Of a stretch of 22,451 nt of DNA, positions 2,610 through 21,262 are shown in pieces. The stretch covers positions 1-22,451 of the IMG/VR virus record IMGVR_UViG_3300007345_003804, one strand, 5' to 3'. The DNA comes from a virus. The stretch's first letter is position 1, and every line of letters starts with the position of its first letter. Below the pieces are notes generated by a model that saw nothing but the letters and a program-made list of their open reading frames with translations, ran no database searches and was not told the origin of the DNA. A program made the translations under genes and the position numbers.

Positions 2610-3548
2610 ATGAATAAAACAGAATACCTAGAGTTGTGTAATCAAAAGTACGCTGAGGGCAATCCAATATTGCCTGATGATGTGTATGATAGACTTGTAG
2701 AGAATACTGAACTTGAAAATAAAGTTGGGTATGATTCTAGTGAAGAAAGATTCCAACACCCCTTCCCAATGTATTCATTACAAAAAGTCTTTGTCGGAAA
2801 AGATAAAGAACCAGATTGGGATTCCAAAGAACCACACATAATGACTGCCAAGTTGGACGGTGCCGCCGTGTCTATAACTTATATAGAAGGTGTACTGACA
2901 CAGGCGTTGACTCGTGGTGATGGAAAAGCAGGGCTAGATATTACAGATAAAATTAAGACTTTAGTGCCAAATAAAATATGGAGCAAAGGACTGAAACAGA
3001 TTACTGGAGAAGTTGTTGCACCAAAAGAAATACCAAATGCTAGAAATTATGCAAGTGGTGCTTTGAATCTAAAGGACTTAAAAGAGTTTGAATCTCGTGA
3101 TATAACTTTTATAGCTTACGGAATCCAACCAGCAATATGTGCTAGTTGGACTGAAGATATGGCTATGATAAAAGACATGGGATTCTTAACTGTCACACAT
3201 AGTGATTATAGCCAGTATCCTCAGGATGGTAAAGTTGTAAGGGTCGACTCTAATATATATTTTAAAACATTAGGCCACACTTCACACCACCCAAGAGGAG
3301 CCTTCGCTCTAAAAACTAGACAGGCAGGAGTAGTTACTCGATTACTTGATGTTGAATGGAATGTCGGTAAGTCTGGTGCTGTCTCACCTGTTGCAATCTT
3401 AGAGCCGTGTGTGATTGGCGAAGCTACTATTAGTAGAGCAACTCTACATAATATTGGTTACATAGAAGCGTTAAACCTAGAAATAGGTTGTAATGTAGAA
3501 GTTATTAGAAGTGGGGAAATAATACCTCGCGTTGTAAAAAGAGTATGA
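2610..3548 (+). CDS. ligA: NAD+-dependent DNA ligase, catalytic N-terminal half
   Basis: This protein corresponds to domain Ia, the adenylation domain and the OB fold of bacterial LigA. Visible landmarks are PDDVYDR (22-28, domain Ia), motif I AKLDG with nucleophile K81, TRGDG (101-105), GEV with E134, NARNYASGALN (143-153), DGKVVRV (206-212, motif IV region), FALK with K235 (motif V), and an OB fold ending EIIPRVVKRV (303-312). LigA normally continues into a Zn finger, HhH repeats and BRCT. Here the frame stops right after the OB fold, and that remainder is encoded at 7017. Motif IV has Arg (R211) where E. coli LigA has Lys. The Tyr-His pair of domain Ia reads Lys-Tyr (13-14). It should seal NAD+-dependent nicks, probably with the other half. 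Confidence 0.93.
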   Translation: MNKTEYLELCNQKYAEGNPILPDDVYDRLVENTELENKVGYDSSEERFQHPFPMYSLQKVFVGKDKEPDWDSKEPHIMTAKLDGAAVSITYIEGVLTQALTRGDGKAGLDITDKIKTLVPNKIWSKGLKQITGEVVAPKEIPNARNYASGALNLKDLKEFESRDITFIAYGIQPAICASWTEDMAMIKDMGFLTVTHSDYSQYPQDGKVVRVDSNIYFKTLGHTSHHPRGAFALKTRQAGVVTRLLDVEWNVGKSGAVSPVAILEPCVIGEATISRATLHNIGYIEALNLEIGCNVEVIRSGEIIPRVVKRV

Positions 3549-3838
3549 AGTATGCAAAAGAAGAGCTGGAAAACAGCAACAGGATATTTAAAAGTGCTAC
3601 ACCAAAACTTACCCTTGATTGGTATGTTAAGTGGACTGCTAGTGTTATCCTTCTTGCAGCTATGGTTATTAGGTCAACAGGAATATCGAACACTGCTGAT
3701 ACAATATTATCTTTCTTTGGGTGTTTAGGTTGGTTATTTGTTGCTTTTATCTGGAAAGATAGAGCCTTAATTATTCTAAATGCTATTGCTTGTTTTATAT
3801 TATTAACAGGACTTTTAACTAAATTATTTACTGTCTAA
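3545..3838 (+). CDS. Small three-TM membrane protein (DUF6552-like)
   Basis: This 97-residue protein has a charged N-terminus (about 1-25) and three hydrophobic segments near 29-45, 53-69 and 74-95, with the motif WKDRALIILNA between the last two. The pattern LDWYVKWTAS...GWLFVAFIWKDRALI resembles the small DUF6552 membrane proteins I recall from marine phages and bacteria; this was not checked. It starts with an ATGA overlap on the ligase stop codon, so the two are translationally coupled and share promoter P2. Function unknown. Confidence 0.75.
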   Translation: MKYAKEELENSNRIFKSATPKLTLDWYVKWTASVILLAAMVIRSTGISNTADTILSFFGCLGWLFVAFIWKDRALIILNAIACFILLTGLLTKLFTV

Positions 3839-4224
3839 TGGCAGGAGGTATATACAACGAAACGTATTTTCGCAACTACCCTGAAGAAAAAGACAGGGAT
3901 GGAATACTATATGGCATAGTACTGGTTAATATGAAAACATGGGAACGAGAAACTATAAAAGTCGGCATCGCAAAAGGAAGAACATTCAAAGACGCCGTTC
4001 GAAGGGGGCGTGGATTCACCAACTACGATATTCGGATTCAGCGTTTGTGGAGCGGGACGATATACGATTGTTGGAGATTCGAGCAGAAGCTACACAACCA
4101 GTTTCAGAAAGATAGACATAAAACACAACACAAGTTTGGTGGACACACGGAATGTTTCAGCATGGAGTCTAAAATATTAGAGGCATTTCCAAAAAAGAAT
4201 GAAGAATATGATAGCAATAATTGA
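3838..4224 (+). CDS. GIY-YIG / T5orf172-like nuclease-fold protein
   Basis: The 128 residues fit the GIY-YIG superfamily: GILYGIVLV (22-30, first strand with Tyr25), IKVGIAKGR (40-48, second strand and Arg48), WRFEQKLHNQF (79-89, helix with Glu82), and GHTECFSM (102-109), which is the characteristic tail of T5orf172 and MUG113-type members. In the family the Tyr, Arg and Glu form a metal-dependent phosphodiester-cleaving site. It starts within the preceding stop codon (TAATG). It lies between the two ligase halves, where a homing-type nuclease could have helped insert a cassette, but free-standing members of this family often have unknown roles. Codon choice looks richer in G+C (GGGGGCGTGG, GAGCGGGACG) than the flanking genes. 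Confidence 0.7.
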   Translation: MAGGIYNETYFRNYPEEKDRDGILYGIVLVNMKTWERETIKVGIAKGRTFKDAVRRGRGFTNYDIRIQRLWSGTIYDCWRFEQKLHNQFQKDRHKTQHKFGGHTECFSMESKILEAFPKKNEEYDSNN

Positions 4225-4738
4225 AAACTTTTATACTAAGGAAGAATGTGATTCACTCAGAAATCACCCCGATAATGAATGGATAGCCGCAAGTTCCAGA
4301 AGCTTAGATGGAAAAGTCACAACTGGTGGGTACAGAAATGCAGACATAACTTATCGTTTACCTGTGAAAAGAAAGGAAGTCGTAGAAGCATTTAAAACTT
4401 TCAATAAACAACATTATAACTTACACTTGAATGGACACATTGAAGCAGCTATCAATAGATATGGAGTTGGACAATATTTTAAATTACACTATGATATGAT
4501 ATTGGACGATACTTTATATGACAAGAAAAGAGAATGTAGAAAAATCTCTGCAGCTATTCAGCTGTCAGACCCCAGCGAGTACGAAGGTGGTAGACTAATT
4601 GTAAAAGGATATTCAACACCTGTTGGACAAGGAACAATGATTTTATTCCACTCGCTATCATCACACGAAGTCACCCCAATTACAAAAGGAATGAGATACA
4701 GTCAAAATATATTTGCCTACGGAAAGTTTGAATTATGA
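4199..4738 (+). CDS. 2OG-Fe(II) oxygenase (prolyl 4-hydroxylase-like)
   Basis: This is a 179-residue double-stranded beta-helix dioxygenase. The iron ligands are seen as HYD (H97, D99) in YFKLHYDMILDD and the distal H156 in SLSSHEVTPITKG. R166 in GMRYS should bind the 2-oxoglutarate carboxylate, and the C-terminal FAYGKFEL strand fits. EYEGGRLIV (128-136) is the usual strand between the two ligand sets. The family hydroxylates peptides, amino acids or small molecules using O2 and 2OG. The start could be ATG 4199 or ATG 4208 (MIAIIENFY); neither has a strong SD. It overlaps the previous gene and is ATGA-coupled to the carbamoyltransferase, which suggests action on a shared substrate. The substrate is unknown. 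Confidence 0.88.
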   Translation: MKNMIAIIENFYTKEECDSLRNHPDNEWIAASSRSLDGKVTTGGYRNADITYRLPVKRKEVVEAFKTFNKQHYNLHLNGHIEAAINRYGVGQYFKLHYDMILDDTLYDKKRECRKISAAIQLSDPSEYEGGRLIVKGYSTPVGQGTMILFHSLSSHEVTPITKGMRYSQNIFAYGKFEL

Positions 4739-6072
4739 AGTTTATAGGAATTAGTGAAGGCTTCCATGATGCAGCGATAGCTGTGGTAGATGAGTATAAT
4801 CAATTACAATTTGCAACCCAAGCCGAAAGATATACAAGAGTTAAAAATGATAGATGGTTGCCCGATAACTTGGTACAAAAAGAGAAAGGAGACCAAGTTA
4901 TTTATTATGAAAACACAGAGTTTAAAAAAGCAAGACGAGAGCATTATGGTCAGTCTCGAATCGAGCTAAAAAGAGATTACGATATTAAAACAATCTTTCA
5001 TCACGAAAGTCACATGGCGGCAGGTTATTATACTGCTCCATTTACTGAGGATGTTGTATGTGTAGTTATAGACGCAGTAGGCGAGTATGACACAGCAACT
5101 ATATGGAAAGATGGAAAAAAGATATGGAGTAAACAATACCCTTGGTCTTTGGGAATGTTTTATAGTGCTATTACGAAAAGAATAGGACTAAAACCAAATG
5201 AAGATGAGTATATAACAATGGGTATGGCGGCATATGGTGATGCAGAAATAGATATGTCAGAAGAAGTACAGTCTGATTGTAGTCATGGATTTCCTTTAAC
5301 AAAATGGTTTTGGAAACACCCATACGATATAGCCGCAAGTGCGCAGTATACAATAGAACAAGAAATACTAAAAATTATGCGTGAAGCAAGAAAGCATGGC
5401 TCTAAGCTAGTATATGGTGGTGGGGTTGCCTTAAACTGTGTAGCAAATAGTAAGATTCGTCCTATGTTTGATGATATGTGGATATTTCCTAATCCAGGCG
5501 ATGCAGGAAGCGCGCTTGGTTGTATATTAGCACACACAAAGAAACGATTAGAGTATCCTCACACTTTTTGGGGAGAAAACATTTTTAGAGACTTAGAGGT
5601 TAATAAAATAGTAAAGAAACTTGTATACAAAAGAGTATGTGGAGTAGCAAATGGACAAGCAGAGTTTGGTCCAAGAGCTTTGGGTAATAGGTCTTTACTA
5701 GCAGACGTTAGAACTGATGTAAAAGATACTGTAAATGATATAAAACGAAGACAAAAGTTTAGACCATTTGCACCAGCAATACTAGAGGAGTTCTATGACG
5801 AATACTTTGAAGGATATGCAAATGAATATATGCAGTTTGTATCTAAGGCAAAACACGACTACACTAGCGTAACTCATGTAGATGGAACAGCAAGAGTACA
5901 AGTAGTAAAGAATGATGGAAGTAATCTTAGAGAAATACTAGAATATTATTATGAAGTAACTAAAGTTCCTATGTTACTTAATACAAGTTTGAATATAAAA
6001 GGACAACCTATTGTGAACACTTGGGAAGATGCAAAACAATTTGAAACAAAATATGGAGTAAATGTACTATGA
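4735..6072 (+). CDS. Carbamoyltransferase, NodU/TobZ/HypF-like
   Basis: The N-terminal ASKHA/Kae1-like domain begins FIGISEGFHDAAIAVV and holds HHESHMAA with the metal-binding HxxxH (H89, H93), the acidic VIDAVGEYD (111-119) and MGMAAYGD. The VYGGGVALNCVANSKI stretch (226-241) and PNPGDAGSALG are conserved in the family. The C-terminal domain has QAEFGPRALGNRSLLAD (309-324) and FRPFAPAI. NodU-type enzymes make carbamoyl-adenylate from carbamoyl phosphate and ATP and transfer the carbamoyl group to a hydroxyl. At 445 residues it is shorter than the usual 550-600, with short linkers, but all signature blocks are present. It is ATGA-coupled on both sides, to the oxygenase and the SGNH-like gene. 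An O-carbamoylated sugar or nucleoside product is inferred. Confidence 0.92.
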   Translation: MKFIGISEGFHDAAIAVVDEYNQLQFATQAERYTRVKNDRWLPDNLVQKEKGDQVIYYENTEFKKARREHYGQSRIELKRDYDIKTIFHHESHMAAGYYTAPFTEDVVCVVIDAVGEYDTATIWKDGKKIWSKQYPWSLGMFYSAITKRIGLKPNEDEYITMGMAAYGDAEIDMSEEVQSDCSHGFPLTKWFWKHPYDIAASAQYTIEQEILKIMREARKHGSKLVYGGGVALNCVANSKIRPMFDDMWIFPNPGDAGSALGCILAHTKKRLEYPHTFWGENIFRDLEVNKIVKKLVYKRVCGVANGQAEFGPRALGNRSLLADVRTDVKDTVNDIKRRQKFRPFAPAILEEFYDEYFEGYANEYMQFVSKAKHDYTSVTHVDGTARVQVVKNDGSNLREILEYYYEVTKVPMLLNTSLNIKGQPIVNTWEDAKQFETKYGVNVL

Positions 6073-6836
6073 TATATTGGAATGGATGTAGTTTTGTTAG
6101 AGGAATGGAAGTTGGAAAGAAGAAGCATAAGTTTGCTTGGTCTGTTTCAGAAGAGTTTAATCAAGAGTGTATAAATCATGCAAAGGTTGGAGGAAGTAAT
6201 GATAGAATATGGAGGACAACTATAAATGATGTGCCTCAGTTCTTTCAACCTGCCCTTGTAGTAATTATGTGGACTGGAATTAATAGAATGGAGTATTTAG
6301 AGTGGGCACCCCTTAAGTCCCATGAGTTTATATGGAGAGCAGCTAATTGGGCAAACTTTAACTGGAATCCTAAAACTGGATTTATAGATAAAAAGAATAG
6401 TTATATAACTAAAAATCCTGTACCAGGTGTTGTTAAGAAATCTTTACAGGATTATATGGTGAATGTAAGAAATATGCCATTTAATTTAATATATAACTTA
6501 CATTATATGTATACAACTAATATTTACTTAAAGTCATTAGGAATTAATGTTTTGAATTATACTATGTCGAATACTCCCTATCTACATTTACCAGAGTACT
6601 TAGAACGTACATTTAGAGAGGGAGCAAACTTTGTATGGGAGACTCCCCAAATAGATAAAAAAGAATGGTTTAAAAGGTTACCTTTCCTAAAAGAAGAAGG
6701 TATGTATGATATGTGTAAAAAGGCGGGAGTACCCTTTGGAGAAAAAGACCATCCGTTAGAAGAAGGACATGCACTAATGCATGATAGAATAGTAAAGGAT
6801 ATAAGGAAACATGGATTTAATAAAGAGTTTAATTAA
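6069..6836 (+). CDS. SGNH-hydrolase-like protein
   Basis: The start MIYWNGCSFVRG has the block I pattern of SGNH proteins (GxS, S8). GGSNDRIWR (41-49) resembles block II, with Gly and Asn for the oxyanion hole. VVIMWTGINRMEYL (64-77) takes the place of the block III strand. DHPLEEGHALMHDRI near the end (227-241) resembles block V, with D227, H228 and H234. These features suggest an esterase or acyltransferase fold of 255 residues, without signal peptide. It is ATGA-coupled to the carbamoyltransferase, and such pairs often decorate glycans. A 34-codon gene starts inside its last 26 nt. The fold call is moderately sure; catalytic activity is unproven. Confidence 0.72.
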   Translation: MIYWNGCSFVRGMEVGKKKHKFAWSVSEEFNQECINHAKVGGSNDRIWRTTINDVPQFFQPALVVIMWTGINRMEYLEWAPLKSHEFIWRAANWANFNWNPKTGFIDKKNSYITKNPVPGVVKKSLQDYMVNVRNMPFNLIYNLHYMYTTNIYLKSLGINVLNYTMSNTPYLHLPEYLERTFREGANFVWETPQIDKKEWFKRLPFLKEEGMYDMCKKAGVPFGEKDHPLEEGHALMHDRIVKDIRKHGFNKEFN

Positions 6837-6915
6837 AAAGATTCAAGCAGTTTGGTTTCACTGGAAACATAGAAATGATTATGTAGAAGATACCCACATT
6901 TACGAGGACGATTAA
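6811..6915 (+). CDS. Very small protein (34 aa)
   Basis: ATG 6811 opens 34 codons to the TAA at 6913-6915. AAGGAA lies 3-8 nt upstream. The peptide has a basic amphipathic N-terminal helix (MDLIKSLIKKIQAVWFHWKH) and an acidic C-terminus (YVEDTHIYEDD). It could attach to a membrane surface. It overlaps the SGNH-like gene by 26 nt and is the last gene of the P2 unit. The good ribosome site supports it as real. Function unknown. Confidence 0.5.
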   Translation: MDLIKSLIKKIQAVWFHWKHRNDYVEDTHIYEDD

Positions 6916-6950
6916 AAAATTGATTCACGCTTATAAGTCAAGCATCCGAA

Positions 6951-6991
6951 AAAAAGTTCTTGACAGATGCTTAAACTTTTTGTATAATATA
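6951..6991 (+). promoter_or_regulatory. Promoter P3 (shared 41-bp module)
   Basis: TTGACA (6960-6965) and TATAAT (6983-6988) are separated by 17 bp, and the AGTTC upstream and ATA downstream are the same as in the other copies. Predicted +1 near 6995 gives a leader of about 22 nt with AGGAGAGAG (7001-7009) before the GTG at 7017. It is the only copy with A in place of T in the AAATAGTTC block. Confidence 0.92.
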
Positions 6992-7016
6992 TGTATATTT
7001 AGGAGAGAGAAGCTAA

Positions 7017-7775
7017 GTGAATGTGATTATAGCACCAACCAACTGCCCTTGTTGTGATAGTGAATTAGAATTGGTCAATGAGCAATTATTTTGCCGTAAC
7101 CAATACTGTTCTGCACAATGGAGCAAGAAGTTGGAAAGCTTTGCTTCTACTCTTAAAATAAAAGGTCTTGGACCAGCGACTCTAGTTAAGTTGCAAGTCC
7201 AAGACTACCCAGAACTTTATGAACTTACTGTAGATGAAATACAGCAAAGATTAGGAAGTATTAAGTTAGCTGAGAAACTTTATGACGAATTGCAAAAGTC
7301 TAAAAGTAGTAAGTTGGTCGATATAATACCAGCTTTCTCAATACCACTTATTGGTCGGTCGGCTTCTCAAAAATTATGCGATAGAATATCTCACATCGAA
7401 GATATTAGCGAGAACAGTTGTACTGAGGCAGGTATCGGACCAAAAGCATCAGCTAGCTTATTACAGTGGTTAGACACTGAGTTTTATCCTAACAAATACA
7501 TTGACAACCTTCCCTTCAATTGGAACAACAAGATTAAAGAAAAGAAAGAGGTCACAGGCGTCGTTTGTATATCAGGTAAGTTAAAAAGCTACCCAACAAA
7601 AGCACATGCTACCTTGGTATTAGAAAAGTCTGGGTATGTTGTAAAATCAAGTCTGACAAAAGACTGCACTCATCTTATAAATGAGAGTGGACTAGAATCA
7701 GCAAAAACAAAGACAGCTCGTGACCGAGGTGTTGTAATAATAACCAATTTAAAAAAATTAATAAAGGAAAATTAA
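7017..7775 (+). CDS. ligB: NAD+-dependent DNA ligase, Zn/HhH/BRCT C-terminal half
   Basis: This 252-residue protein is the piece missing from the ligase at 2610. It begins within 9 residues of a four-Cys zinc finger (C10, C13, C26, C31), continues through SFASTLKIKGLGPATLVKLQ and further helix-hairpin-helix units (about 40-160), and ends in a BRCT domain (180-250; SGKLKSYPTKAHATLVLEKSGYVVKSS and the TH(L)I strand). In LigA these domains grip the nicked duplex. The cut relative to intact LigA lies just between OB fold and zinc finger, with no domain lost. GTG 7017 is preferred over GTG 7023 because AGGAG lies 11 nt upstream. It is first in the P3 unit, 2 nt before the HTH-repeat gene. Symbol follows the T5-type subunit A/B naming and is tentative. 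Confidence 0.9.
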   Translation: MNVIIAPTNCPCCDSELELVNEQLFCRNQYCSAQWSKKLESFASTLKIKGLGPATLVKLQVQDYPELYELTVDEIQQRLGSIKLAEKLYDELQKSKSSKLVDIIPAFSIPLIGRSASQKLCDRISHIEDISENSCTEAGIGPKASASLLQWLDTEFYPNKYIDNLPFNWNNKIKEKKEVTGVVCISGKLKSYPTKAHATLVLEKSGYVVKSSLTKDCTHLINESGLESAKTKTARDRGVVIITNLKKLIKEN

Positions 7776-12260: not shown

Positions 12261-14517
12261 CGTAGCAATAATAGAAAAAACAATGACAAGTACTAATTAT
12301 GATAAGTACTTTGATTTTGACTATGACAGGTATGCCCTGTGTTCAGATAGTTCAAAACAGAAAATATTAAAAAGAGATGTTGATATTGAAATCGATATCG
12401 ACTCGTACGATTGGCTCATTCTAGTAGGTTCAGAGCCTTTCAAAAACTTTACAAGAAAGACATCAATAACAGAGTACAATGGAAAAATTGTTGATGATAA
12501 GTTTTTAGGTTTAATTAACCCTGCTATGATAAAGTTCAGACCAGAAGCAAAGAAGTCGTTCGAGGAAGCAATTGAGAGTATATCGGGGTACATAAGCGGA
12601 GATTTAAAACAAATGACGCTAGGCGAAAACCAAGTATATGGTATACAAGAGAGTGAAGAACTGCATAAGTATTTGCAAGAAGCGTTAGACCACCCAAACA
12701 ATTACATAGCACTTGACTCTGAGACATCAGCATTATATTGCCGTGATGGTTATATGCTTGGTTTCTCTATGTCATACAAAAAAGAACATGGTGTCTATGT
12801 AGACACAGAATGTATAGATGATAAAGCAGAACAAATGATGCAAGAATTATTTGATAAGAAACGAGTTGTATTTCATAACAGTAAGTTTGATTTACAATGG
12901 TTTGAGTATCATTTCAACTTTAAGTTCCCAAACTTTGAAGACACAATGCTAATGCACTATATGTTTGACGAAAACCCAGGAACACATGGACTAAAACAAC
13001 TAGCCATGAATCATACTCCATACGGAGACTATGAGGCAGAACTTGATAACTATATACAAGAGTACAAGAAGAAAACAGGAATATTAAAAGCAGACTTTAG
13101 TTATTCTATGATTCCATTTGAAACAATGAAATACTATGCTGCAATGGATGCCGTAGTTACCTTCTTGTTATTTGAAAAGTTTGAAGCAGCAATATTGAAA
13201 AATGATAAATTATACTGGGTATATAAAAATCTTCTTATTGAAGGAGTAAGATTCCTTAAAGATGTAGAATCTAACGGTGTTCCTTTTGACCTTGCTCGAC
13301 TAGAGTTTGGACAGAAAAGGATGCAGGAAGATATTGATGTAGCTGTAGCTGCTCTTGAATCCTTCCCTGAGGTTAGAGCATATCAAAAAGCCAAAGGAGG
13401 TATGTTTAATCCAAATAGTACAGTACAACTTCGTGAGTTACTATTTGATTACATAGGCTTAGCCCCAACGGGTAAGAAAACGGGTACGGGTGCTCATAGC
13501 ACAGACGCAGAAGTTCTTGGGCAACTTGCCGAAGAACACGAAGTACCTAAACACATTTTAGAAATCAGACAAAAGGTTAAAATTAAGAATACATATCTTG
13601 ATAAAATTATACCGAATCTCGATAGAGATGGCAGACTGCGCACTGGTTTCAACCTTCACGGTACTACATCAGGCCGACTATCTAGTAGTGGTAAACTAAA
13701 TATGCAACAGCTTCCGCGAGACAATCCCACAGTTAAGGGTTGTATCAAGGCAAAGGCGGGTCATAAAATAGTTGCCATGGACTTAACTACTGCAGAAGTA
13801 TATTGTGCAGCTGTGCTAGCAAATGATAAAGGTCTGATGAATGTGTTTAAGTCTGGAGGAAACTTCCATAGTACAATTGCTAAGCAAGTATTCAAACTTC
13901 CATGTGAAGTTGAAGAAGTCGCAGAACTCTACGGAGACAAACGACAACAAGCTAAAGCTGTTACATTTGGTATTATGTATGGAGCAGGCCCGAAAAAGAT
14001 TAGTGAACAAGTTACTAAAGATAGTGGTAGTGAGTTTACTATGCAAGACGCTCAATTGGTTATCAAAGACTACTTTGAAGCGTTCCCCAAACTGCGAGAG
14101 TGGTTAAATAATATGCAGAAGTTTATTCAAGCTAATGGTTTTATTTATTCTCATTTCGGAAGAAAGAGAAGATTACCAAATGTCTTTTCACAAGACAAGG
14201 GAATCGCTGCTCACGAAGTTAGGTCAGGAGTAAATGCACTAGTACAGTCTGTATCATCCGACATCAATCTGCTTGGTGCCATCGATACTCAGAAGTATAT
14301 TCGCAAGACTGGTATGAAAGCAAAGATCTTTGCTCTAGTGCATGACTCCATTTTAGCAGAAGTGCCCGAAGATGAAGTAGAACTATATAGTAAGAAACTG
14401 AAAGAGTTTATTCAAAAAGATAGAGGACTGTCAATACCTGGCGCTCCAGTTGGTTGTGACTTTGATGTTGCAGATGACTACTCTCTTGGCAAGTTTGAAA
14501 AACTATATGGAATATAA
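12253..14517 (+). CDS. DNA polymerase I, family A, with 3'-5' exonuclease
   Basis: The 754 residues include an N-terminal extension (1-140, no 5' nuclease), a DEDD-type 3'-5' exonuclease (D155 and E157 in ALDSETS, then VFHNSKFDLQWF and KYYAAMDAVV) and a polymerase domain. Motif A is VAMDLTTAEVY with D510. Motif B is KRQQAKAVTFGIMYG with R564 and F572. Motif C is LVHDSIL with D698. The position equal to E. coli Phe762 is Phe, and the Tyr766 equivalent is present. Motif A differs from the usual DYSQIE: Ser and Ile are replaced by Thr and Ala. It is the replicative phage polymerase, cotranscribed with primase from P4, and overlaps the next gene by 11 nt. Confidence 0.96.
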   Translation: MANVAIIEKTMTSTNYDKYFDFDYDRYALCSDSSKQKILKRDVDIEIDIDSYDWLILVGSEPFKNFTRKTSITEYNGKIVDDKFLGLINPAMIKFRPEAKKSFEEAIESISGYISGDLKQMTLGENQVYGIQESEELHKYLQEALDHPNNYIALDSETSALYCRDGYMLGFSMSYKKEHGVYVDTECIDDKAEQMMQELFDKKRVVFHNSKFDLQWFEYHFNFKFPNFEDTMLMHYMFDENPGTHGLKQLAMNHTPYGDYEAELDNYIQEYKKKTGILKADFSYSMIPFETMKYYAAMDAVVTFLLFEKFEAAILKNDKLYWVYKNLLIEGVRFLKDVESNGVPFDLARLEFGQKRMQEDIDVAVAALESFPEVRAYQKAKGGMFNPNSTVQLRELLFDYIGLAPTGKKTGTGAHSTDAEVLGQLAEEHEVPKHILEIRQKVKIKNTYLDKIIPNLDRDGRLRTGFNLHGTTSGRLSSSGKLNMQQLPRDNPTVKGCIKAKAGHKIVAMDLTTAEVYCAAVLANDKGLMNVFKSGGNFHSTIAKQVFKLPCEVEEVAELYGDKRQQAKAVTFGIMYGAGPKKISEQVTKDSGSEFTMQDAQLVIKDYFEAFPKLREWLNNMQKFIQANGFIYSHFGRKRRLPNVFSQDKGIAAHEVRSGVNALVQSVSSDINLLGAIDTQKYIRKTGMKAKIFALVHDSILAEVPEDEVELYSKKLKEFIQKDRGLSIPGAPVGCDFDVADDYSLGKFEKLYGI

Positions 14518-15076
14518 TAAACTAGAGCAACGTAAAGAAGCATTAGCAGGTAAAATAGTTGGAGATTTTGTATTTATACATATTCCAAAGACTGGTGGTA
14601 GAAGTATAACACAAAACTGTTTTCATAATCAGTTTGGTCTGTGTGCAGATTGGTACAAATATAGAGGGTATAACAAGTTTATAACTCAAGTAAGAAACCC
14701 TTATGATAGATGGGAAAGTATGTATTGGCACTTAAAAAGACACAAAGAGTTTGACTATGATTTTAATAACTGGACTTTAAAAACAATAATAGTACAGTCT
14801 CAAGGATTTGTAAACATGAATAAGCCTTTTAAAACAGATAAGTATGAATTAAAATCTTTATATCAAGTAATGGGTAAACCTATGTGGTTTTGGATTGATA
14901 GAGAAGTTGAAGTTCATAAATTAGAAGAAGGAACTATTTGGAAACGACTAGGCATAGAAGAAAGAAAAAGAAATGTAGGTAAAAATAGAAAAGAAGTAAT
15001 CTGGTCTGACGAAGCACAGAGTATATTTACTAAATACTTTGAAAGAGATTTTAAAGAGTTCGGATATGATATTTGA
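14507..15076 (+). CDS. Sulfotransferase-family protein A
   Basis: Numbered from ATG 14507 (189 residues), FVFIHIPKTGGRSI (21-34) is the 5'-phosphosulfate loop with K28, and FITQVRNPYDRWESMYW (58-74) is the 3'-phosphate site with R63. The tail ends ERDFKEFGYDI as in the family. These enzymes move sulfate from PAPS to a hydroxyl or amine on sugars, lipids or peptides. A longer in-frame extension exists upstream but lies wholly within the polymerase gene; the 11-nt overlap start matches the following junctions. It is the first of two tandem members with distinct acceptor-side sequences, so they probably act on different positions or substrates. Confidence 0.85.
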   Translation: MEYNKLEQRKEALAGKIVGDFVFIHIPKTGGRSITQNCFHNQFGLCADWYKYRGYNKFITQVRNPYDRWESMYWHLKRHKEFDYDFNNWTLKTIIVQSQGFVNMNKPFKTDKYELKSLYQVMGKPMWFWIDREVEVHKLEEGTIWKRLGIEERKRNVGKNRKEVIWSDEAQSIFTKYFERDFKEFGYDI

Positions 15077-15704
15077 AGATGATAAGATAATATTTATACA
15101 TATACCCAAGTGTGGAGGTAGCTCTGTAACTAGAGCTTATAGGCGATACCGCTTACCTAAAGATAAGAAAATGGCAATGAAAACTTGGTCGCCTGGTTTA
15201 AAATCAGTTTCAAAATGGAAAACAAATGAGGCATTTTGGGTAGAAGTAACTAATATGCACGCTACTTATGATAGATATAAACCTTTCTATCCTGACTATC
15301 AATATATAACTCAAATTAGATACCCTATGGCAAGATGGGAAAGTGTTTATAAGCACTTGTGTAAGCTGGAACTAGTAAATACGGAGTTCTCAGAGTGGAC
15401 AGAAAGAGCTTCTCAATACTTACCAAAAGGTCAGTTTTGGAGACTGTTTGATAATATAGATATATACCTAGATAGAACTCATGCCCATAATAGTGAAATA
15501 GAGATTTTGTTTTTACCTCAATGGACTTGGATAAGAGAAGAAGTAAAAGTATTTAAACTAGAAGAAGAAACTATATGGAAGTGGTTGAATCTTCCTAAAA
15601 GAGTAGATAATGTATCTCCTATACAAGAGTGTATATGGTCAGAGAAAGCAGAAAACTTTGTAAAAGAGTGGTGGAGAAAAGATTTTGAATATTATGAAAA
15701 ATAA
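15066..15704 (+). CDS. Sulfotransferase-family protein B
   Basis: The 212-residue protein begins IFEDDKIIFIHIPKCGGSSV, the 5'-phosphosulfate loop (14-19), and has ITQIRYPMARWESVYKHL (81-98) with R85 as the 3'-phosphate site. Its end, WWRKDFEYYEK, is shortened compared with its neighbour. ATG 15066 is chosen over an in-frame TTG at 15039 because it gives the 11-nt overlap found repeatedly here and puts the P-loop-like strand at the usual distance. The inserts (KDKKMAMKTWSPGLKS and FDNIDIYLDRTHAHN) differ from protein A, which suggests a different acceptor. Loop residue Cys replaces Thr in PKCGG, which is common in the family. Confidence 0.85.
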   Translation: MIFEDDKIIFIHIPKCGGSSVTRAYRRYRLPKDKKMAMKTWSPGLKSVSKWKTNEAFWVEVTNMHATYDRYKPFYPDYQYITQIRYPMARWESVYKHLCKLELVNTEFSEWTERASQYLPKGQFWRLFDNIDIYLDRTHAHNSEIEILFLPQWTWIREEVKVFKLEEETIWKWLNLPKRVDNVSPIQECIWSEKAENFVKEWWRKDFEYYEK

Positions 15705-16365
15705 AGATACTGTAGTATGCGTAAGTGGTGGCACTGAATCTACTGCTGCTTTATTGTATGCAGTAAATAAAGGTATGAAAGTTGTAGGTCTACACTTAGC
15801 AGATAAGTCAGACCCTAAGAAAATATTTGAAGCATCTAAACAAGCTGCTGAAAAACAATGTGAGTTACTAGGAGTTCCTTTAGTTACAACTGTATGTGAT
15901 ATTCCTAAAGATAATCCAGGACTCTTTGCTGTATATCAGTATCAATCAGCTATATTACAACTCATAAAAGGAAACAAGATGAGAATAAAAAATATAGTAT
16001 GGGGTTCTAGTGCAGAAGATAGTTTTAGACAAAGAGTACAATTAAGATATCCTAACAGAATACTAGCAGTAGATGCCGAAGATGTTTTAGAAGTTACACA
16101 AGTATCTTTAAACTCAGTTATGAATCTACCTGTCAATATATTTCCTTTTGAGTGGATGACAAAAGCAGAAATAATATCATTACTTGTAAGAAGTAACAAA
16201 GAGTTATATGATTTAATATTTACTTGTAATAATCCTACAGATGATTTAAAAACGTGTGGTAGATGTAAAAAGTGTGCCGAAAGATGGTTTTCAGAACAAA
16301 CAGCTAAACAAGCTAAACTAAGAGTACAGGAGAGTGTTAATTATGTCAATAGTTACGATAGTTAA
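15694..16365 (+). CDS. PP-loop ATPase, QueC-like (ATP-pyrophosphatase)
   Basis: Numbered from ATG 15694 (223 residues), VCVSGGTESTAALL (8-21) is the PP-loop that binds ATP, and VWGSSAEDSFRQ (102-113) is the second conserved block. The C-terminus has four cysteines, C178, C188, C191 and C194 (CGRCKKCAER), the zinc site of QueC and its relatives. QueC makes preQ0 from carboxydeazaguanine, but this family also includes other amide- and thio-forming enzymes. In the loop Glu stands where most have Asp (SGGxDS). No QueD, QueE, FolE or DpdA gene is in the window, so a deazapurine role is open. It overlaps the previous gene by 11 nt and the next by 23 nt. Confidence 0.8.
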   Translation: MKNKDTVVCVSGGTESTAALLYAVNKGMKVVGLHLADKSDPKKIFEASKQAAEKQCELLGVPLVTTVCDIPKDNPGLFAVYQYQSAILQLIKGNKMRIKNIVWGSSAEDSFRQRVQLRYPNRILAVDAEDVLEVTQVSLNSVMNLPVNIFPFEWMTKAEIISLLVRSNKELYDLIFTCNNPTDDLKTCGRCKKCAERWFSEQTAKQAKLRVQESVNYVNSYDS

Positions 16366-16834
16366 ACCTTATGAAGAATTAACAACTGATGAACTTTATA
16401 GAGTCATACAGTTGAGAATACAAGGATTTATAGTAAGAAATGGGACTTGTTATCAAGACCTAGAAGCACATTATGATAAAAATCAATATTATATGATGTC
16501 ATATGATACAGTTCTAGGCATAGAGCCACAACTAATGGTAGGCGTAAATGCTTTGTGCACAAATAAAGTATTTACAGGAGATGATGGTACAGAGTATCGT
16601 TATCCCGCATTTCGTAGACAAGCATGGGAAGATGCTTACAAAGGGGGCGCATCAACTTATGACCTAGAAACAGGGCGTGAGTTTTGCAAAAATAATTTAG
16701 GCAGTCCTAACATGATGTTAGAGATTACATATGAGAAAGGCAGACAAGTCTTTCTCGACTTTGGATGTAGAGAAATAGGAACTAATATTGACCCAGCGGG
16801 TAGAAAAAATTGGGTGTTTGTTTATGAATCTTAA
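16343..16834 (+). CDS. GNAT-family N-acetyltransferase-like protein (ElaA-like start)
   Basis: The N-terminal stretch ELTTDELYRVIQLRIQGFIVRNGTCYQDLEAHYDK resembles the ElaA pattern (l.elY.ilqLR..vFvvEq.c.Y.d.D), and VFLDFGCREIGTNIDPAGR near the C-terminus resembles the GNAT (F)Y..FGF.eig strand-turn. The pantetheine-binding Q/RxxGxG/A loop is not clear, so catalytic competence is uncertain. Length is 163 residues. ATG 16343 has AGGAG 10 nt upstream and is preferred over the GTG at 16334, which overlaps that site. Acylation of an amine on the pathway product is possible but not shown. Confidence 0.55.
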   Translation: MSIVTIVKPYEELTTDELYRVIQLRIQGFIVRNGTCYQDLEAHYDKNQYYMMSYDTVLGIEPQLMVGVNALCTNKVFTGDDGTEYRYPAFRRQAWEDAYKGGASTYDLETGREFCKNNLGSPNMMLEITYEKGRQVFLDFGCREIGTNIDPAGRKNWVFVYES

Positions 16835-17030
16835 AGAAAAAATACAGATTAGACTAGACAAAATAGAGATGCTTATGAACAAGGATTTTCATTTGAAGAA
16901 TCCTGACGAAGTATACGATCAAACACTAGATGTTAGTAAGTTTTGGTCAATATTATCAGAAGAAGATAGAGATTTTATTCAAGGAGTACAATCATCTATT
17001 GAAGAGGGCTGGTCTTGGAAAGACAAGTGA
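16824..17030 (+). CDS. Small helical hypothetical protein (68 aa)
   Basis: ATG 16824 overlaps the previous stop by 11 nt. The 68 residues are predicted helical: MNLKEKIQIRLDKIEMLMNK, then VYDQTLDVSKFWSILSEEDRDFIQGVQSSIEEGW. From memory this LKEKI...IEML pattern with a FWS.LSEEDRDFI motif is a conserved marine-phage hypothetical, but no function is known. It is followed by a 7-nt gap to the next gene. Confidence 0.6.
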   Translation: MNLKEKIQIRLDKIEMLMNKDFHLKNPDEVYDQTLDVSKFWSILSEEDRDFIQGVQSSIEEGWSWKDK

Positions 17031-17037
17031 AGAGGAT

Positions 17038-17544
17038 ATGAGATTAGACAAACTATGGAAAACAATACGTTATCCGATTGATAAAGAGTATTGGGTAAAA
17101 GAAATTAGAGAAGGCAAAAACTTTCAATGGGAAGTAGACCTAAATAATTACGCAAACGCTGATAGTAATATATGGCATACAGACGTTACCCAAAGGTATT
17201 TAGATGCAATAGCACAATATAAAGTTCCTTTTTCTAAAAAGATGCATTGTAGACTTTTCTTTGTAAAAATTATGGCGGAAGACTTTTATGCTAAATATCC
17301 TGTATTGGGTCAGACTGGAATCCTTTGGAATATTACGGGTATAAATAAAGAATCTAGACATAAAATAGTAGGCTCAAACAATGAAGGGAGTGTTGCACTA
17401 GAGGTAAAGACTGCTAAACCACTATTAGTAGATATGAATAGTTTAAAAACTATAACAGATGTACAAAGACGAGATTTAGTATTAATTTTTGATGAACCTT
17501 TTGATAAAGTATTAGAGAGCTGGGATGAGTATAACAAGTTATAA
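17038..17544 (+). CDS. Cupin/2OG-oxygenase-fold-like protein 1
   Basis: The 168-residue protein from ATG 17038 has a C-terminal part similar in strand order to the next gene: LWNITGI, a middle insertion, KPLLVDMNSLKTITD, then QRRDLVLIFDEPFDKVLESW, as in the last strands of 2OG-Fe(II) beta-helices (the (R)-x-ils(i/l).f pattern). An IWHTDVTQ motif appears early (about 51-58), but its position does not match the usual HxD slot, and no distal His is evident. It is therefore probably a double-stranded beta-helix protein that may have lost metal binding. It overlaps the next gene by 20 nt. Confidence 0.45.
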   Translation: MRLDKLWKTIRYPIDKEYWVKEIREGKNFQWEVDLNNYANADSNIWHTDVTQRYLDAIAQYKVPFSKKMHCRLFFVKIMAEDFYAKYPVLGQTGILWNITGINKESRHKIVGSNNEGSVALEVKTAKPLLVDMNSLKTITDVQRRDLVLIFDEPFDKVLESWDEYNKL

Positions 17545-17920
17545 TTATAAATGGAAGCAATATAAACATCACGGTAAAGAAACTATAGAGGGATATACTT
17601 TTACTAGAATACCTCCAGTTCAGTTTAACGGTAGATGGAACATGAAAATAATAAAGTTAAATGAAACTATACCTTGGCATACTGACTGGGACACTAAATG
17701 TGCTATAAATTACTTACTAAATGATGATTTAGAAAGTGCAGGGCATATTGAAATAGGAGAAAAAGCCGAAAAGTTTCAGTATAGAATGGCAGTTATTGAT
17801 ACTACTAAAAGACATAGAGCTGTAGTGTATGATAAACCAAGAAAAATATTAAAGATAAGTATTTTTGATGAAACTTATGAGGAAATATGCAAAAAATTAG
17901 ATTCCCTATTTACGTCATAA
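17525..17920 (+). CDS. Putative 2OG-Fe(II) / aspartyl-hydroxylase-like oxygenase
   Basis: In the 131 residues the sequence IPWHTDWDTKCAINYLL (49-65) gives H52-x-D54 followed by an N-(Y/F)-L strand, and DTTKRHRAVVYDKPRKILKISIF (92-114) gives the distal H97 and a 2OG-binding R106. This is the minimal ligand set of the double-stranded beta-helix oxygenases, in a short form. It probably hydroxylates a side chain or a small molecule. It starts inside the previous gene and overlaps the next by 34 nt. The two tandem genes might form a heterodimer. Confidence 0.68.
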   Translation: MSITSYNYKWKQYKHHGKETIEGYTFTRIPPVQFNGRWNMKIIKLNETIPWHTDWDTKCAINYLLNDDLESAGHIEIGEKAEKFQYRMAVIDTTKRHRAVVYDKPRKILKISIFDETYEEICKKLDSLFTS

Positions 17921-18357
17921 ATGAAGAGCCAGAAGAAATAGATGGACTGGTTATTATTGGTGACCAAGTAGTAGATGATAAAAATATGGATGGTAGTAGT
18001 ATAGGAATAAGAAGGCTGCAAACACCAATGAAAAGTATATATCCTTTGCGTTATCAAATAGATGACGAAGTAGGAATGATGAAGCATAGGGGAAAGCATT
18101 TTATAGATACCAATGGAGTTTATTGGTATGATGAAAAAACAACAACAGCTCAATTAAAATATCTTAAAATAAGAAAAGTTGAGAAGAAAGATATTGCATC
18201 AGTAATTTGGTTAAAGGATTGTCCTTTTCCATTTATTGAGAGTAGACCACCAATAGCGGGGTCTAGTTGGGCAGGAGTATTGTATAAACAAGGTATTCCA
18301 TGGAAAATATGGGAATATTGCGAGGATAAAAAGAAAGACACATGGAGGAAAATCTAA
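17887..18357 (+). CDS. Hypothetical protein (156 aa)
   Basis: I do not recognise this protein. It has an N-terminal strand-rich part (IRFPIYVINEEPEEIDGLVII), a basic middle (LKYLKIRKVEKKD) and a C-terminal part with SSWAGVLYKQGIPWKIWEYC. The early strands and a short HRGKHFIDTNG loop make a compact beta-rich fold likely. There is no membrane segment or signal peptide. It lies between an oxygenase-like and a radical SAM gene, so it may be part of the same pathway. The 34-nt overlap with the preceding gene is the largest in the operon. Confidence 0.65.
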   Translation: MQKIRFPIYVINEEPEEIDGLVIIGDQVVDDKNMDGSSIGIRRLQTPMKSIYPLRYQIDDEVGMMKHRGKHFIDTNGVYWYDEKTTTAQLKYLKIRKVEKKDIASVIWLKDCPFPFIESRPPIAGSSWAGVLYKQGIPWKIWEYCEDKKKDTWRKI

Positions 18358-18361
18358 AAGC

Positions 18362-19138
18362 ATGGCGCAAGCTCTCTGGTTAATTAATATAGATGTAACA
18401 GGACTCTGTAATAAGACTTGTAATTATTGCCCAAGGTCTAAAGGATATCCAAATATTAATGAACATATGCCTTATGAAGTATTTGATAACTTTATTACTT
18501 ATTTAGATAAAATTAAGTATAATGGTTGGATATGTTGGAGTGGTAGAGGAGAAAATAGTTTACACCCTCGTGCAGAAGATATGATAAACAGACTGCATAC
18601 TCCTTGGAGACTGTATAAAACTAGAATATTAACTAATGGGTATAAGTTTGATAAAAGAAAACACTGGTTTGCATTATTTGATAAAGCAGTAATAAATACT
18701 TATGAAAGTGAAGAAGAAATGGAAAGAAGAAAAGCAATACTTCCAGCAAAAGAACATAGGTATTGGGATCAAACTGTTGAACCCGAAGAATGGGAAGTAA
18801 CTCCTTTGCAAGTTCAGAATAGAAATGACATATATAATAATGTTATAGCAAGTGATAAAACTTTAAAAGAGCCGTGTATTTTACCCATGACTAAAGCGTG
18901 GATACATTGGACAGGAGATATAAGTCTGTGCAGTAATGATTGGACAGATACAAATATTTTTGGAAATATTAAAGAAGATAACTTCTTTGAAGTCTGGAAT
19001 AATCATCCAGTACTAAATGAAATGAGACAAGAGCTCATAAAGGGGAATAGATATAAATATACTGTCTGTTCTATATGTAATAGAACACACAACAAGTATG
19101 ACAAAAGAAGGTATAAAAAATGGATATCGAGAAACTAA
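18362..19138 (+). CDS. Radical SAM enzyme with SPASM-like C-terminal cysteines
   Basis: The 258-residue protein starts with the CxxxCxxC 4Fe-4S site C16, C20, C23 (GLCNKTCNYCPRS), and SGRGENSLHP (60-69) occupies the SAM-binding GGEP position. The C-terminus holds C172 (EPCILP), C190 (ISLCSND), then C236 and C239 (VCSICNR), with the IFGNIKEDNFFEVWNN segment that is standard in SPASM/Twitch auxiliary-cluster domains. Such enzymes start with a 5'-deoxyadenosyl radical and modify peptides, sugars or alcohols. The GGEP glutamate is kept as part of RGEN. GGAGG lies 14 nt upstream. The substrate is unknown. Confidence 0.88.
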   Translation: MAQALWLINIDVTGLCNKTCNYCPRSKGYPNINEHMPYEVFDNFITYLDKIKYNGWICWSGRGENSLHPRAEDMINRLHTPWRLYKTRILTNGYKFDKRKHWFALFDKAVINTYESEEEMERRKAILPAKEHRYWDQTVEPEEWEVTPLQVQNRNDIYNNVIASDKTLKEPCILPMTKAWIHWTGDISLCSNDWTDTNIFGNIKEDNFFEVWNNHPVLNEMRQELIKGNRYKYTVCSICNRTHNKYDKRRYKKWISRN

Positions 19139-19356
19139 AACAAAAACTAGAAAAGCACATAGTATTAATTACATTTCAAAGTTTGAAATCTAATAACGTA
19201 TATGACAGAGAGTATACTCTTTCTGACTTGCACTGTGATATACCCATTCATATAAGGAAACAGAATGGGGATAAACTTATATGCTATGATGTGGAGTTTC
19301 AAAAGTGGGAAGATTTAGAAATAGATACAATTATGGGGTATAAAGTAGTAGACTAA
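19120..19356 (+). CDS. WYL_2/DUF2693-like small barrel protein
   Basis: The 78 residues follow the DUF2693 layout: LEKHIVLITFQSLKSNN (first strands), REYTLSDL, then DKLICYDVEFQKWEDLEIDTI, the typical V.Dve...W..f..DsI ending. It is probably a small Sm/SH3-like barrel. It starts 19 nt inside the radical SAM gene, and its stop overlaps the next ATG (TAATG). The likely relative at 2004 shares the end pattern only. A nucleic-acid-binding role is possible but unproven. Confidence 0.65.
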   Translation: MDIEKLKQKLEKHIVLITFQSLKSNNVYDREYTLSDLHCDIPIHIRKQNGDKLICYDVEFQKWEDLEIDTIMGYKVVD

Positions 19357-20864
19357 TGTGTGGATTTGTAGTAACAACTGATATAGATAATATACAGAAC
19401 ATGACAGAAAGACAGGCTTTCCGAGGCCCTGACGGGTGTAGATATGCTAGAAATAAGGATATTGCTATGGGTCACGCTTTGCTTGATATAAGAGGAGTAC
19501 AAGGATGGCAACCAATACAAACAAAAAATAATAATATGTTTGTATTTAATGGTGAAGCATATGATTCTAATGTTGATAATGATACGCTATTTTTAGCAAA
19601 TGGATTTGAAACATATGGACTGAGATTTTTATCTTCTACTGATTGGCATGGCTCATTCGTACATTATAATACGGAAACAAGAGAGCTTACCGCAGTAAGA
19701 GACCATTTTGGTGCTAAACCTTTATGGATATATAAAAAGGGCGAAGATATTACTATTTCTACAAGTTTGAAAAGTTTTACTAAAAAGAAATATAATCACT
19801 CTCATACTCAACAGTACAAGAGGTCAAGACAATGGTTTAAAAGAGAGTCACCATATAAAGATATTATAAAGGTAATGCCTGGAGAAATATTTAAGTATAA
19901 TTTTGCTACAAAAAAACTAATGAAGTCAAAAAACTTATGGGATATTCATTTAATGCAAACATTTTATCCGCAAGTTCCTAAAGATTTTGAAGAAAGATTA
20001 GTAAATAATATTAGAAAACTTGCACAAAGTAAACAAAAAACAGGATTATTTTTAAGTGGTGGATTAGATAGTACAATGGTTTTATCTGTAGTTAAAGATA
20101 TGGATATAGACTTAGAAGTATTTACTTGTGCATATGGTCAAGAAAAAACTGAGTTTGACTTTCAAGGTATGAGAGACGAATCTAAAATGGCAATACAAAC
20201 TTGCAAAGAATGGAATATACCTATTAATGTAGTAACTCTGCCTTATAATTATGTAGAACACTACGGTAGAATGTGGATGAATAATACTCATTTTGCATGG
20301 TCAGACCATAACAGAAGAGCTCCTCGATATGCCTTATGTCAGGCTGCTAAAGCTAAAGGATGTAAGGTTATACTTACAGGAGATAGTGCAGATGAGATGT
20401 TTGGTGGTTATACACATCATGATAAAAGATTAGACAAAAGTTATACAGATATGTCTATAAAAATTAATCCAGACATACCAAAATGTTATGGAGATGACTT
20501 TATAAATAATTCTTTATTTATAGATATGTTTTGTACTTCCGAACAAAATATATTAGCAACAGACCAAACTTGTGGAATGTTTGGCTTAGAGTCAAGACCT
20601 GTATTTCTTGGACAAAACTTTGTAAAATATGTATTTGCTATCGCTGGTAAATGGAAACTAGCACACAATGAAAAGTTTGGAAAACATTGGATGATTCAAA
20701 AATATCTTCTAAGAGAAGTTTGTGGACATAGATTGCCCGCTCATGTAAGAAATAGAAACTCAAAAATTGGATGGTCTAGTCCTTGGAATAATAATGTACC
20801 TAAATATAGTAATCCTTGGGTAGAACAAGATATATCACATATGCAGGAAATAGAAAAAGAATGA
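19356..20864 (+). CDS. Asparagine synthase-type glutamine amidotransferase
   Basis: The mature N-terminal Cys2 nucleophile follows Met1 (MCGFVVTT), with RGPDG (23-27), FNGEAYD and a GSFVHYN strand forming the class II glutaminase domain. The synthase domain has GLFLSGGLDST with the PP-loop at 234-239, and LTGDSADEMFGGYTHH further on. At 502 residues it is slightly shorter than AsnB (554). It would activate a carboxyl with ATP and amidate it using ammonia from glutamine. In phage and glycan operons such enzymes often make amides other than asparagine. It is coupled to a WYL_2-like gene upstream and a cytidylyltransferase downstream. Confidence 0.92.
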   Translation: MCGFVVTTDIDNIQNMTERQAFRGPDGCRYARNKDIAMGHALLDIRGVQGWQPIQTKNNNMFVFNGEAYDSNVDNDTLFLANGFETYGLRFLSSTDWHGSFVHYNTETRELTAVRDHFGAKPLWIYKKGEDITISTSLKSFTKKKYNHSHTQQYKRSRQWFKRESPYKDIIKVMPGEIFKYNFATKKLMKSKNLWDIHLMQTFYPQVPKDFEERLVNNIRKLAQSKQKTGLFLSGGLDSTMVLSVVKDMDIDLEVFTCAYGQEKTEFDFQGMRDESKMAIQTCKEWNIPINVVTLPYNYVEHYGRMWMNNTHFAWSDHNRRAPRYALCQAAKAKGCKVILTGDSADEMFGGYTHHDKRLDKSYTDMSIKINPDIPKCYGDDFINNSLFIDMFCTSEQNILATDQTCGMFGLESRPVFLGQNFVKYVFAIAGKWKLAHNEKFGKHWMIQKYLLREVCGHRLPAHVRNRNSKIGWSSPWNNNVPKYSNPWVEQDISHMQEIEKE

Positions 20865-21262
20865 TAGGATTTACTTGTGGAGCATTTGATTTGCTACACG
20901 CAGGACATATTGTAATGCTCAAAGAAGCGAAAGCTAATTGTGATTACTTAATAGTTGGGTTGCAGACTGACCCAAGCATTGATAGACAAGAGAAAAATCA
21001 ACCTGTACAATCAGTCTATGAAAGATTTACACAATTAAGTGCGGTAAAGTATATAGATGAAATAATACCGTATGACACAGAACAAAGTTTAATCGACCTG
21101 TTACTATCAACTAAAATAGATGTTAGATTTGTAGGTGACGATTATAGAGAAAAATATTTTACAGGACAAGAACTAGATATACCTGTACATTACACAAATA
21201 GAAAACACTCTTTTTCTAGTAGAGGTTTAAGGAATAGGGTAAATGAAAGCAGTTCTAAGTAA
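20861..21262 (+). CDS. Cytidylyltransferase-like nucleotidyltransferase (TagD/RfaE type)
   Basis: Numbered from ATG 20861, GFTCGAFDLLHAGHIVMLKEA (3-23) has the HxGH motif (H13, H16) of the nucleotidyltransferase superfamily, and KHSFSSRGLRNRV near the end corresponds to the ISTT/SSS-xx-(R/K) nucleotide site. VGLQTDPSIDRQEKNQP is the usual middle strand. In 133 residues it fits glycerol-3-phosphate or sugar-phosphate cytidylyltransferases, which load a phosphate group onto CTP (or ATP). It is ATGA-coupled to the amidotransferase and overlaps the SF2 helicase by 20 nt. It suggests the pathway needs a CDP- or ADP-activated donor. Confidence 0.85.
   Translation: MIGFTCGAFDLLHAGHIVMLKEAKANCDYLIVGLQTDPSIDRQEKNQPVQSVYERFTQLSAVKYIDEIIPYDTEQSLIDLLLSTKIDVRFVGDDYREKYFTGQELDIPVHYTNRKHSFSSRGLRNRVNESSSK

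Follow-up and report, generated by a model that had tools for sequence, protein, structure and literature searches.

The window analysed here is the whole of the 22,451-base IMG/VR virus record IMGVR_UViG_3300007345_003804, a fragment of about 22 kb from an uncultured marine T5-like phage. Among its replication genes lie two groups of accessory enzyme genes: an island of mostly overlapping genes between the DNA polymerase gene (pol) and the gene for a D10-type SF2 helicase (D10), and a carbamoyltransferase block between ligA and ligB, the two genes of a split NAD ligase. An initial annotation, made from the sequence alone, had read both groups as a complete pathway for making and attaching an unusual group. 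All the genes it named were found where it had placed them, and most of its enzyme labels were borne out by profile or fold searches, including, by Pfam profiles, the carbamoyltransferase and 2-oxoglutarate (2OG) oxygenase at 4199-6072. Two labels fell: g30 is by family and position a T5 backbone gene, and g28 lacks the 2OG oxygenase triad.

The island genes and their T5-like setting

The genes discussed here are the following:

2610-3548: ligA, split NAD ligase
4199-4738, + strand: 2OG-Fe(II) oxygenase (PF13640, 1.4e-12)
4735-6072, + strand: NodU/TobZ-type O-carbamoyltransferase (PF16861, 1.7e-45; PF02543, 2.1e-36)
6069-6836, + strand: DUF6071 gene (PF19547, 2.7e-8), initially labelled an SGNH hydrolase
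7017-7775: ligB, split NAD ligase
14507-15076, + strand: ST1, sulfotransferase-like (phrog_3347, 1.2e-5; about 30% identical to ST2)
15039-15704, + strand: ST2, Sulfotransfer_2-type (PF03567, 2.3e-5, above the curated cut-off; motifs PKCGGSS and RYPMARW)
15685-16365, + strand: QueC-like PP-loop ATPase (PF06508, 2.4e-11; alignment to E. coli QueC)
16334-16834, + strand: GNAT-fold protein with ElaA-like N-terminus (1xeb, 1.5e-6; 5z6n, 4.8e-4)
16824-17030, + strand: g27, small gene, function not assigned (family of 14 loci, about 67 amino acids)
17038-17544, + strand: g28, lineage-specific (weak alignment)
17525-17920, + strand: g29, 2OG-oxygenase-like by HxD...H (H52, D54 and H97 invariant in 15 relatives)
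17887-18357, + strand: g30, probable backbone gene (phrog_4386, 1.4e-5; family of gp30 of phage AAS21, 2.2e-63)
18362-19138, + strand: g31, radical SAM/SPASM enzyme with CxxxCxxC (PF13186, 1.1e-9; PF04055, 2.1e-6)
19120-19356, + strand: g32, small conserved protein, weakly WYL_2/SH3-like (PF10902, 0.041; in 59 loci)
19356-20864, + strand: AsnB-type glutamine amidotransferase with Cys2 and SGGLDST (PF00733, 1.7e-33, with GATase_7; PDB 1ct9, 4.8e-24)
20861-21262, + strand: HxGH cytidylyltransferase (HAGH) of ethanolamine-phosphate or glycerol-3-phosphate type (CTP_transf_like, 8.3e-16; PDB 3elb, 3.2e-24, and 1coz, 6.4e-19)

The backbone of the window comprises the split NAD ligase, a DnaB helicase, a primase, PolA and the D10-type helicase, with no tRNA gene in the 22,451 bases, and the closest cultured polymerases are those of T5-like phages, at about 46% identity. 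Both the split ligase and the order pol, phrog_4386 gene, D10 were found, as in the Demerecviridae. Pantoea phage AAS21, a member of that family, has the same order of ligA, ligB, a putative transcription factor, helicase, primase, pol, the phrog_4386 gene, D10-type helicase, SSB and recombination endonucleases, with a single gene between ligA and ligB and a single gene, of 165 amino acids, between pol and D10. It is at exactly these two single-gene places that the marine phages studied carry their accessory enzymes. The ligA/ligB gap (3545-7016 of the window) serves as an insertion site bordered by a GIY-YIG (T5orf172) gene, and the cassettes that relatives hold there differ in content. Because g30 matches phrog_4386, falls into the family of AAS21 gp30 and occupies the same position, it is best regarded as a backbone gene and probably not as part of the pathway; on these matches it was rejected as a pathway enzyme. 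Its own fold model is weak (pLDDT 70).

The island appears to be maintained by selection. Its reading frames are intact in seven near-identical contigs, and most of its genes recur in tens of more distant relatives. Compared with the relative L021, the ratio of nonsynonymous to synonymous substitution rates (dN/dS) lies under 0.5 in every island gene but the QueC-like gene (0.79, on only four changes) and g28 (2.4, with 26 nonsynonymous versus 3 synonymous changes), the only gene well above 1, which is suggestive, not conclusive, of diversifying selection on g28, unlike on its neighbours. In the AsnB-type enzyme the glutaminase Cys2 and the synthetase motifs are intact and the catalytic residues invariant. 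None of the proteins scanned against NCBIfam reached an equivalog cut-off; the radical-SAM protein stayed far below every cut-off among its matches, and the carbamoyltransferase of the other block scored 119 bits, the NodU cut-off being 1000.

The small genes allow fewer assignments. The start of g27 was chosen by the length of its relatives and is probably 16824, and that of g28 is probably 17038, not 16930. The initial annotation had counted two cupin- or 2OG-oxygenase-like proteins; g28, possibly a degenerate and only weakly homologous relative of g29, has no HxD...H in the alignment, which rules it out as a second active 2OG oxygenase. The triad of g29 is complete, and profile searches of Pfam and PDB gave no match for it. 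Where the families f23 or f38 occupy the g29 slot in some relatives, HxD...H was not seen, and they were not counted as 2OG oxygenases. The relative G004 (L102) encodes a second radical-SAM-like protein, 27% identical to g31, beside GT29- and GT8-like genes (contig 28092-29012, - strand).

Sulfotransferases, the QueC-like protein and its GNAT-fold neighbour

For ST2, assignment to the sulfotransferases that depend on 3'-phosphoadenosine 5'-phosphosulfate (PAPS) comes from Pfam; for ST1 it comes only from homology (phrog_3347, ST2) and from motifs read from the sequence, a 5'-PSB-type loop PKTGGRS and a 3'-PB-type RNPYDRW. A further, short sulfotransferase-like reading frame at 1002-1349 has only the 3'-PB-type motif and, lacking the 5'-PSB loop, was left out of the count of active enzymes; it is also short in the relatives G015 and G004, so its decay is not unique to the window contig. 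In the islands of several relatives, just upstream of g29 and g30, a fusion gene (phrog_10255; L032:4102-4866 and 13 other loci) joins an adenosine 5'-phosphosulfate (APS)-kinase-like domain to a nucleotidyltransferase domain of the HxGH type. Nearly all loci with this fusion also show a sulfotransferase gene, short loci being ones that cannot be judged. The fused protein may provide PAPS or, alternatively, activate a different alcohol.

The QueC-like protein is a divergent member of PF06508. With canonical QueC, Cap9 and QatC it shares the PP-loop fold, the zinc-binding Cys4 and a conserved P..x..K[SA]E stretch. Canonical QueC is recognised by SGGxDS, YxQxHxxE, VPxRN, YPDC and the zinc cysteines (Biochem J 2026, PMC13329287), and a Tyr/Asp pair serves in recognition of the 7-deazaguanine base (Nat Commun 2026, PMC13279940). 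Unlike these kin, the phage proteins carry xGGxE[S/C/T] in place of SGGxDS (SGGTES in the window), the Asp position being an invariant Glu in 17 relatives, and in an alignment with E. coli QueC all 17 phage sequences lack YxQxHxxE, VPxRN and YPDC. The cysteines of the C(x)8CxxCxxC motif (C181, C191, C194 and C197) are invariant, with a first spacer of variable length. The window protein scores 29 bits against TIGR00364, for which the curated score is 150. Since the loop Asp is replaced by Glu and the other motifs are lost while the cysteines are kept, a substrate other than 7-deazaguanine is likely, and the motifs rule out a canonical QueC as well as a Cap9 or QatC type. The protein would rather activate a carboxylate at the expense of ATP.

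The neighbouring GNAT-like label was upheld by an ElaA family profile (1.5e-6) and by the predicted fold (AlphaFold pLDDT 83; Foldseek E of about 1e-7 to GNATs); in an alignment of 12 relatives, the RxxGxG/A acetyl-CoA loop was not seen. The searches made found neither the QueC-like family nor full-length relatives of the GNAT gene outside this phage clade, and a GNAT search of genome contigs for a bacterial source cluster returned only ElaA-like N-termini.

Distribution in relatives and a candidate acceptor

We mapped 80 polymerase relatives and compared the 15 contigs that reach from ligA to D10, among which are three near-identical pairs. The close relatives are all metagenomic contigs, some of them incomplete. 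AsnB is present in all 15 spanning contigs, the carbamoyltransferase paired with its DUF6071 partner in 14, the cytidylyltransferase in 11 and the sulfotransferase family in 10, four others having a gene (ST46) that resembles sulfotransferases by motif only, with no Pfam match. Of the 15, 11 have the QueC-like gene together with the GNAT gene and the other 4 have neither; the radical-SAM gene was found only where both are present. Some lineages have this GNAT–radical SAM–QueC cassette between ligA and ligB, whereas that of the window has it between pol and D10; the polymerase tree requires at least five changes of site, throughout which the linkage was kept. The gene set is thus coherent, as the initial annotation had supposed, with accessory genes that travel in linked cassettes from one fixed site to the other, and the random gain and loss without co-occurrence that it named as its refutation was not seen.

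The pathway is not complete within the window: glycosyltransferases (GTs) lie outside it, and several relatives add the APS-kinase-like fusion, a methyltransferase or an epimerase. Relatives keep a core and swap decorating enzymes. At polymerase identities of 85-95%, the average is 88% for D10 and 85% for LigB, compared with 73% for the carbamoyltransferase, 61% for AsnB and 53% for the SGNH slot; QueC, AsnB and the SGNH slot diverge far faster than the backbone. The island has a GC content of 32% versus 37-39% for pol and DnaB. These patterns are in line with decorating enzymes that are exchanged or that diverge rapidly and, by analogy, the divergence of AsnB, the SGNH slot and QueC would resemble that of variable surface-glycan loci.

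No glycosyltransferase lies within the window, which ends too early for the initial annotation to have met one: GT genes stand outside it, in contigs of the same species. In 99%-identical contigs a GT-like gene directly follows D10 (phrog_1574; phrog_34859 glycosyltransferase, 2.4e-4; in Pfam only a marginal Anp1 match), and the same-species contigs also encode proteins of the GT29 sialyltransferase family (2.6e-11) and GT8-like proteins (6.6e-5). Several relatives have a PF03407 glycosyltransferase (GT32, 4e-7) within the homologous island, between g32 and AsnB. On the strand opposite to GT29, all five long contigs encode a Thr-rich protein of 886-1525 amino acids with 35-39% Thr, 9-13% Ser and 38-102 N-X-S/T sites (L013:7063-10131, - strand; L102:1711-4902; G015 contig 37950-40610, L272/L273; G007; G014). 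A Thr-rich gene lies 1.94-2.04 kb from GT29 in 71 of 71 testable loci, versus 0 of 78 pol-region loci (959 kb). It closes the tail operon, at the position that tail fibres occupy in AAS21; those fibres are not rich in Thr. This tail-end protein is a candidate acceptor, no more; literature searches turned up nothing direct on threonine-rich tail proteins or on marine T5-like phages. Elsewhere in G015 (contig about 77,766-84,074, L274-L275), a curli-like set (CsgG-like, curlin-repeat, FecR-like and CHASE2-like) and IscU/IscA-like Fe-S scaffold genes were read by eye; such identities, the G015 gene list included, are leads, not tests.

A proposed glycan decoration pathway and its alternatives

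Our first choice, held with somewhat less than even confidence, is that the island and the carbamoyltransferase block form a phage pathway that both builds a sugar-like group, possibly linked to CDP, and decorates it; the most likely acceptor is the phage's own Thr-rich tail-end protein. Known Sulfotransfer_2 enzymes and NodU-type carbamoyltransferases act mostly on sugars, and among the groups initially proposed a glycan fits best. Also in its favour are the glycosyltransferase genes of the same species and of relatives, the APS-kinase-like fusion in relatives with sulfotransferase genes, the retained core and cassette linkage, the fast divergence of AsnB, the SGNH slot and QueC, and the fixed placing of the Thr-rich gene opposite GT29. 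The gene identities, their conservation, the cassette linkage and the neighbourhood of the Thr-rich gene were observed; the substrates, the sequence of reactions and the product are inferred from enzyme families, and the acceptor is inferred too, as follows. The cytidylyltransferase would activate a phospho-alcohol or phospho-sugar, and the AsnB-type enzyme would amidate a carboxylate with glutamine as donor. A second substituent, an amide or acyl group, may be the joint task of the radical-SAM, QueC-like and GNAT proteins. Hydroxylation may fall to the 2OG oxygenase or oxygenases, O-carbamoylation to the NodU-type enzyme and O-sulfation to the Sulfotransfer_2 enzymes. Glycosyltransferases encoded outside the window would then transfer the product, in the first place to the Thr-rich protein beside GT29 and in the second to a host-surface glycan. 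The product is probably a sulfated, carbamoylated and amidated sugar-like group, with the virion tail as its probable and the host surface as its less likely destination.

Several observations weigh against this assignment. The window yielded no recognisable sugar kinase, aminotransferase or nucleotide-sugar dehydratase, which means that the host would have to supply precursors. The island lies in the replication module, not beside tail genes, and is unlinked to the Thr-rich/GT29 locus; as every relative examined has both, their co-occurrence is uninformative. The Thr-rich repeats have a 6-residue periodicity, and a beta-solenoid fibre could explain them without glycosylation. The joint presence of QueC and GNAT amounts to one independent phylogenetic contrast, which is not significant: their co-occurrence is coherent but not statistically independent.

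During infection, the same enzymes might instead remodel a polysaccharide of the host surface (lipopolysaccharide or capsule) so that superinfection is blocked or adsorption changed; the virion would then not be a target. We consider this unlikely on balance. The early-module position would permit action well before lysis, the rapid change of AsnB and of the SGNH slot agrees with it, and the enzyme classes are those of the cyanophage clusters (e.g. of S-SSM6a) for which Iyer et al. (2021, PMC7824862) predicted decoration of capsular polysaccharide or synthesis of a metabolite. Against it, the gene list of the 104-kb relative G015, on inspection only, showed no recognisable flippase, polymerase or O-antigen ligase. 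The cyanophage cluster is the nearest described system: it too combines a carbamoyltransferase with 2OG and DSBH (cupin-like) enzymes and has glycosyltransferases in the same phage, matched here by GT29, GT8-like and PF03407 proteins outside the window. Unlike it, the present set belongs to a T5-like phage, occupies two replication-module sites, includes AsnB, QueC-like, GNAT, radical-SAM and sulfotransferase genes, and shows no halogenase.

The pathway could also make a diffusible small molecule or modified peptide during infection. Radical SAM/SPASM, AsnB, QueC-like and GNAT enzymes are known from peptide and natural-product pathways. A metabolite is, moreover, the other option of Iyer et al. 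(PMC7824862) for the cyanophage cluster. However, no precursor peptide or exporter was recognised, the radical-SAM protein falls short of all matched NCBIfam families and the sulfotransferase and GT content favours sugars, which makes this option improbable.

Slightly poorer still is the case for hypermodification of phage DNA, in which the enzymes would build a large group on a base. The genes do lie among replication genes, QueC serves 7-deazaguanine DNA in other phages, and a phage carbamoyltransferase of the NodU/TobZ type, to which the window enzyme also belongs, acts on 5-hydroxymethylcytosine (PMC8670742). According to that study, DNA-acting carbamoyltransferases co-occur with thymidylate synthase, while others are flanked by glycosyltransferases; here, the thymidylate-synthase family (PF00303) was found in none of 12 relatives' contigs of up to 105 kb, with controls matched, and glycosyltransferases are present instead. 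GTP cyclohydrolase I (FolE, PF01227) and above-cut-off PTPS/QueD (PF01242) were each absent from 8 contigs of up to 105 kb, which may be incomplete and whose host could supply both; a search for Tet_JBP dioxygenases gave 0 of 12 contigs, with no control genome matched either. As ThyA, FolE and QueD families were not found and the QueC motifs (cf. PMC13329287) are lost, DNA-base modification is disfavoured.

Least probable of all is that metabolic genes with no relation to one another gathered opportunistically at two insertion hot spots. The fixed sites, the GIY-YIG gene, the lower GC content of the island and the single independent contrast speak for this, but it sits poorly with a core kept across the clade, linked cassettes that survive relocation and purifying selection on nearly all genes. 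An anti-phage defence system was rejected, PADLOC having given only weak QueC, viperin-like and methyltransferase matches.

Also close among known systems is rhizobial Nod-factor decoration, in which NodU, NodH and NodPQ perform O-carbamoylation, sulfation and sulfate activation on one oligosaccharide; a chitin-synthase-like NodC was not seen here. The most novel element is the QueC-like/GNAT/radical-SAM unit. A bolder and rather doubtful proposal is that these three constitute a new enzymatic unit, in which a remodelled PF06508 branch would activate a carboxylate other than that of 7-deazaguanine chemistry and, with its GNAT partner, form an unusual substituent, amide or acyl, on the sulfated and carbamoylated glycan of a mucin-like phage tail protein. 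If the pathway operates as we suggest, these uncultured marine T5-like phages produce a heavily decorated glycan of their own, on the virion or the host, and trade the enzymes in cassettes much like bacterial O-antigen genes. There would be a concrete acceptor to test, the QueC family would gain a function outside 7-deazaguanine chemistry, and the pathway would help to explain the abundance of 2OG oxygenases, carbamoyltransferases and sulfotransferases without assigned roles in marine phages.

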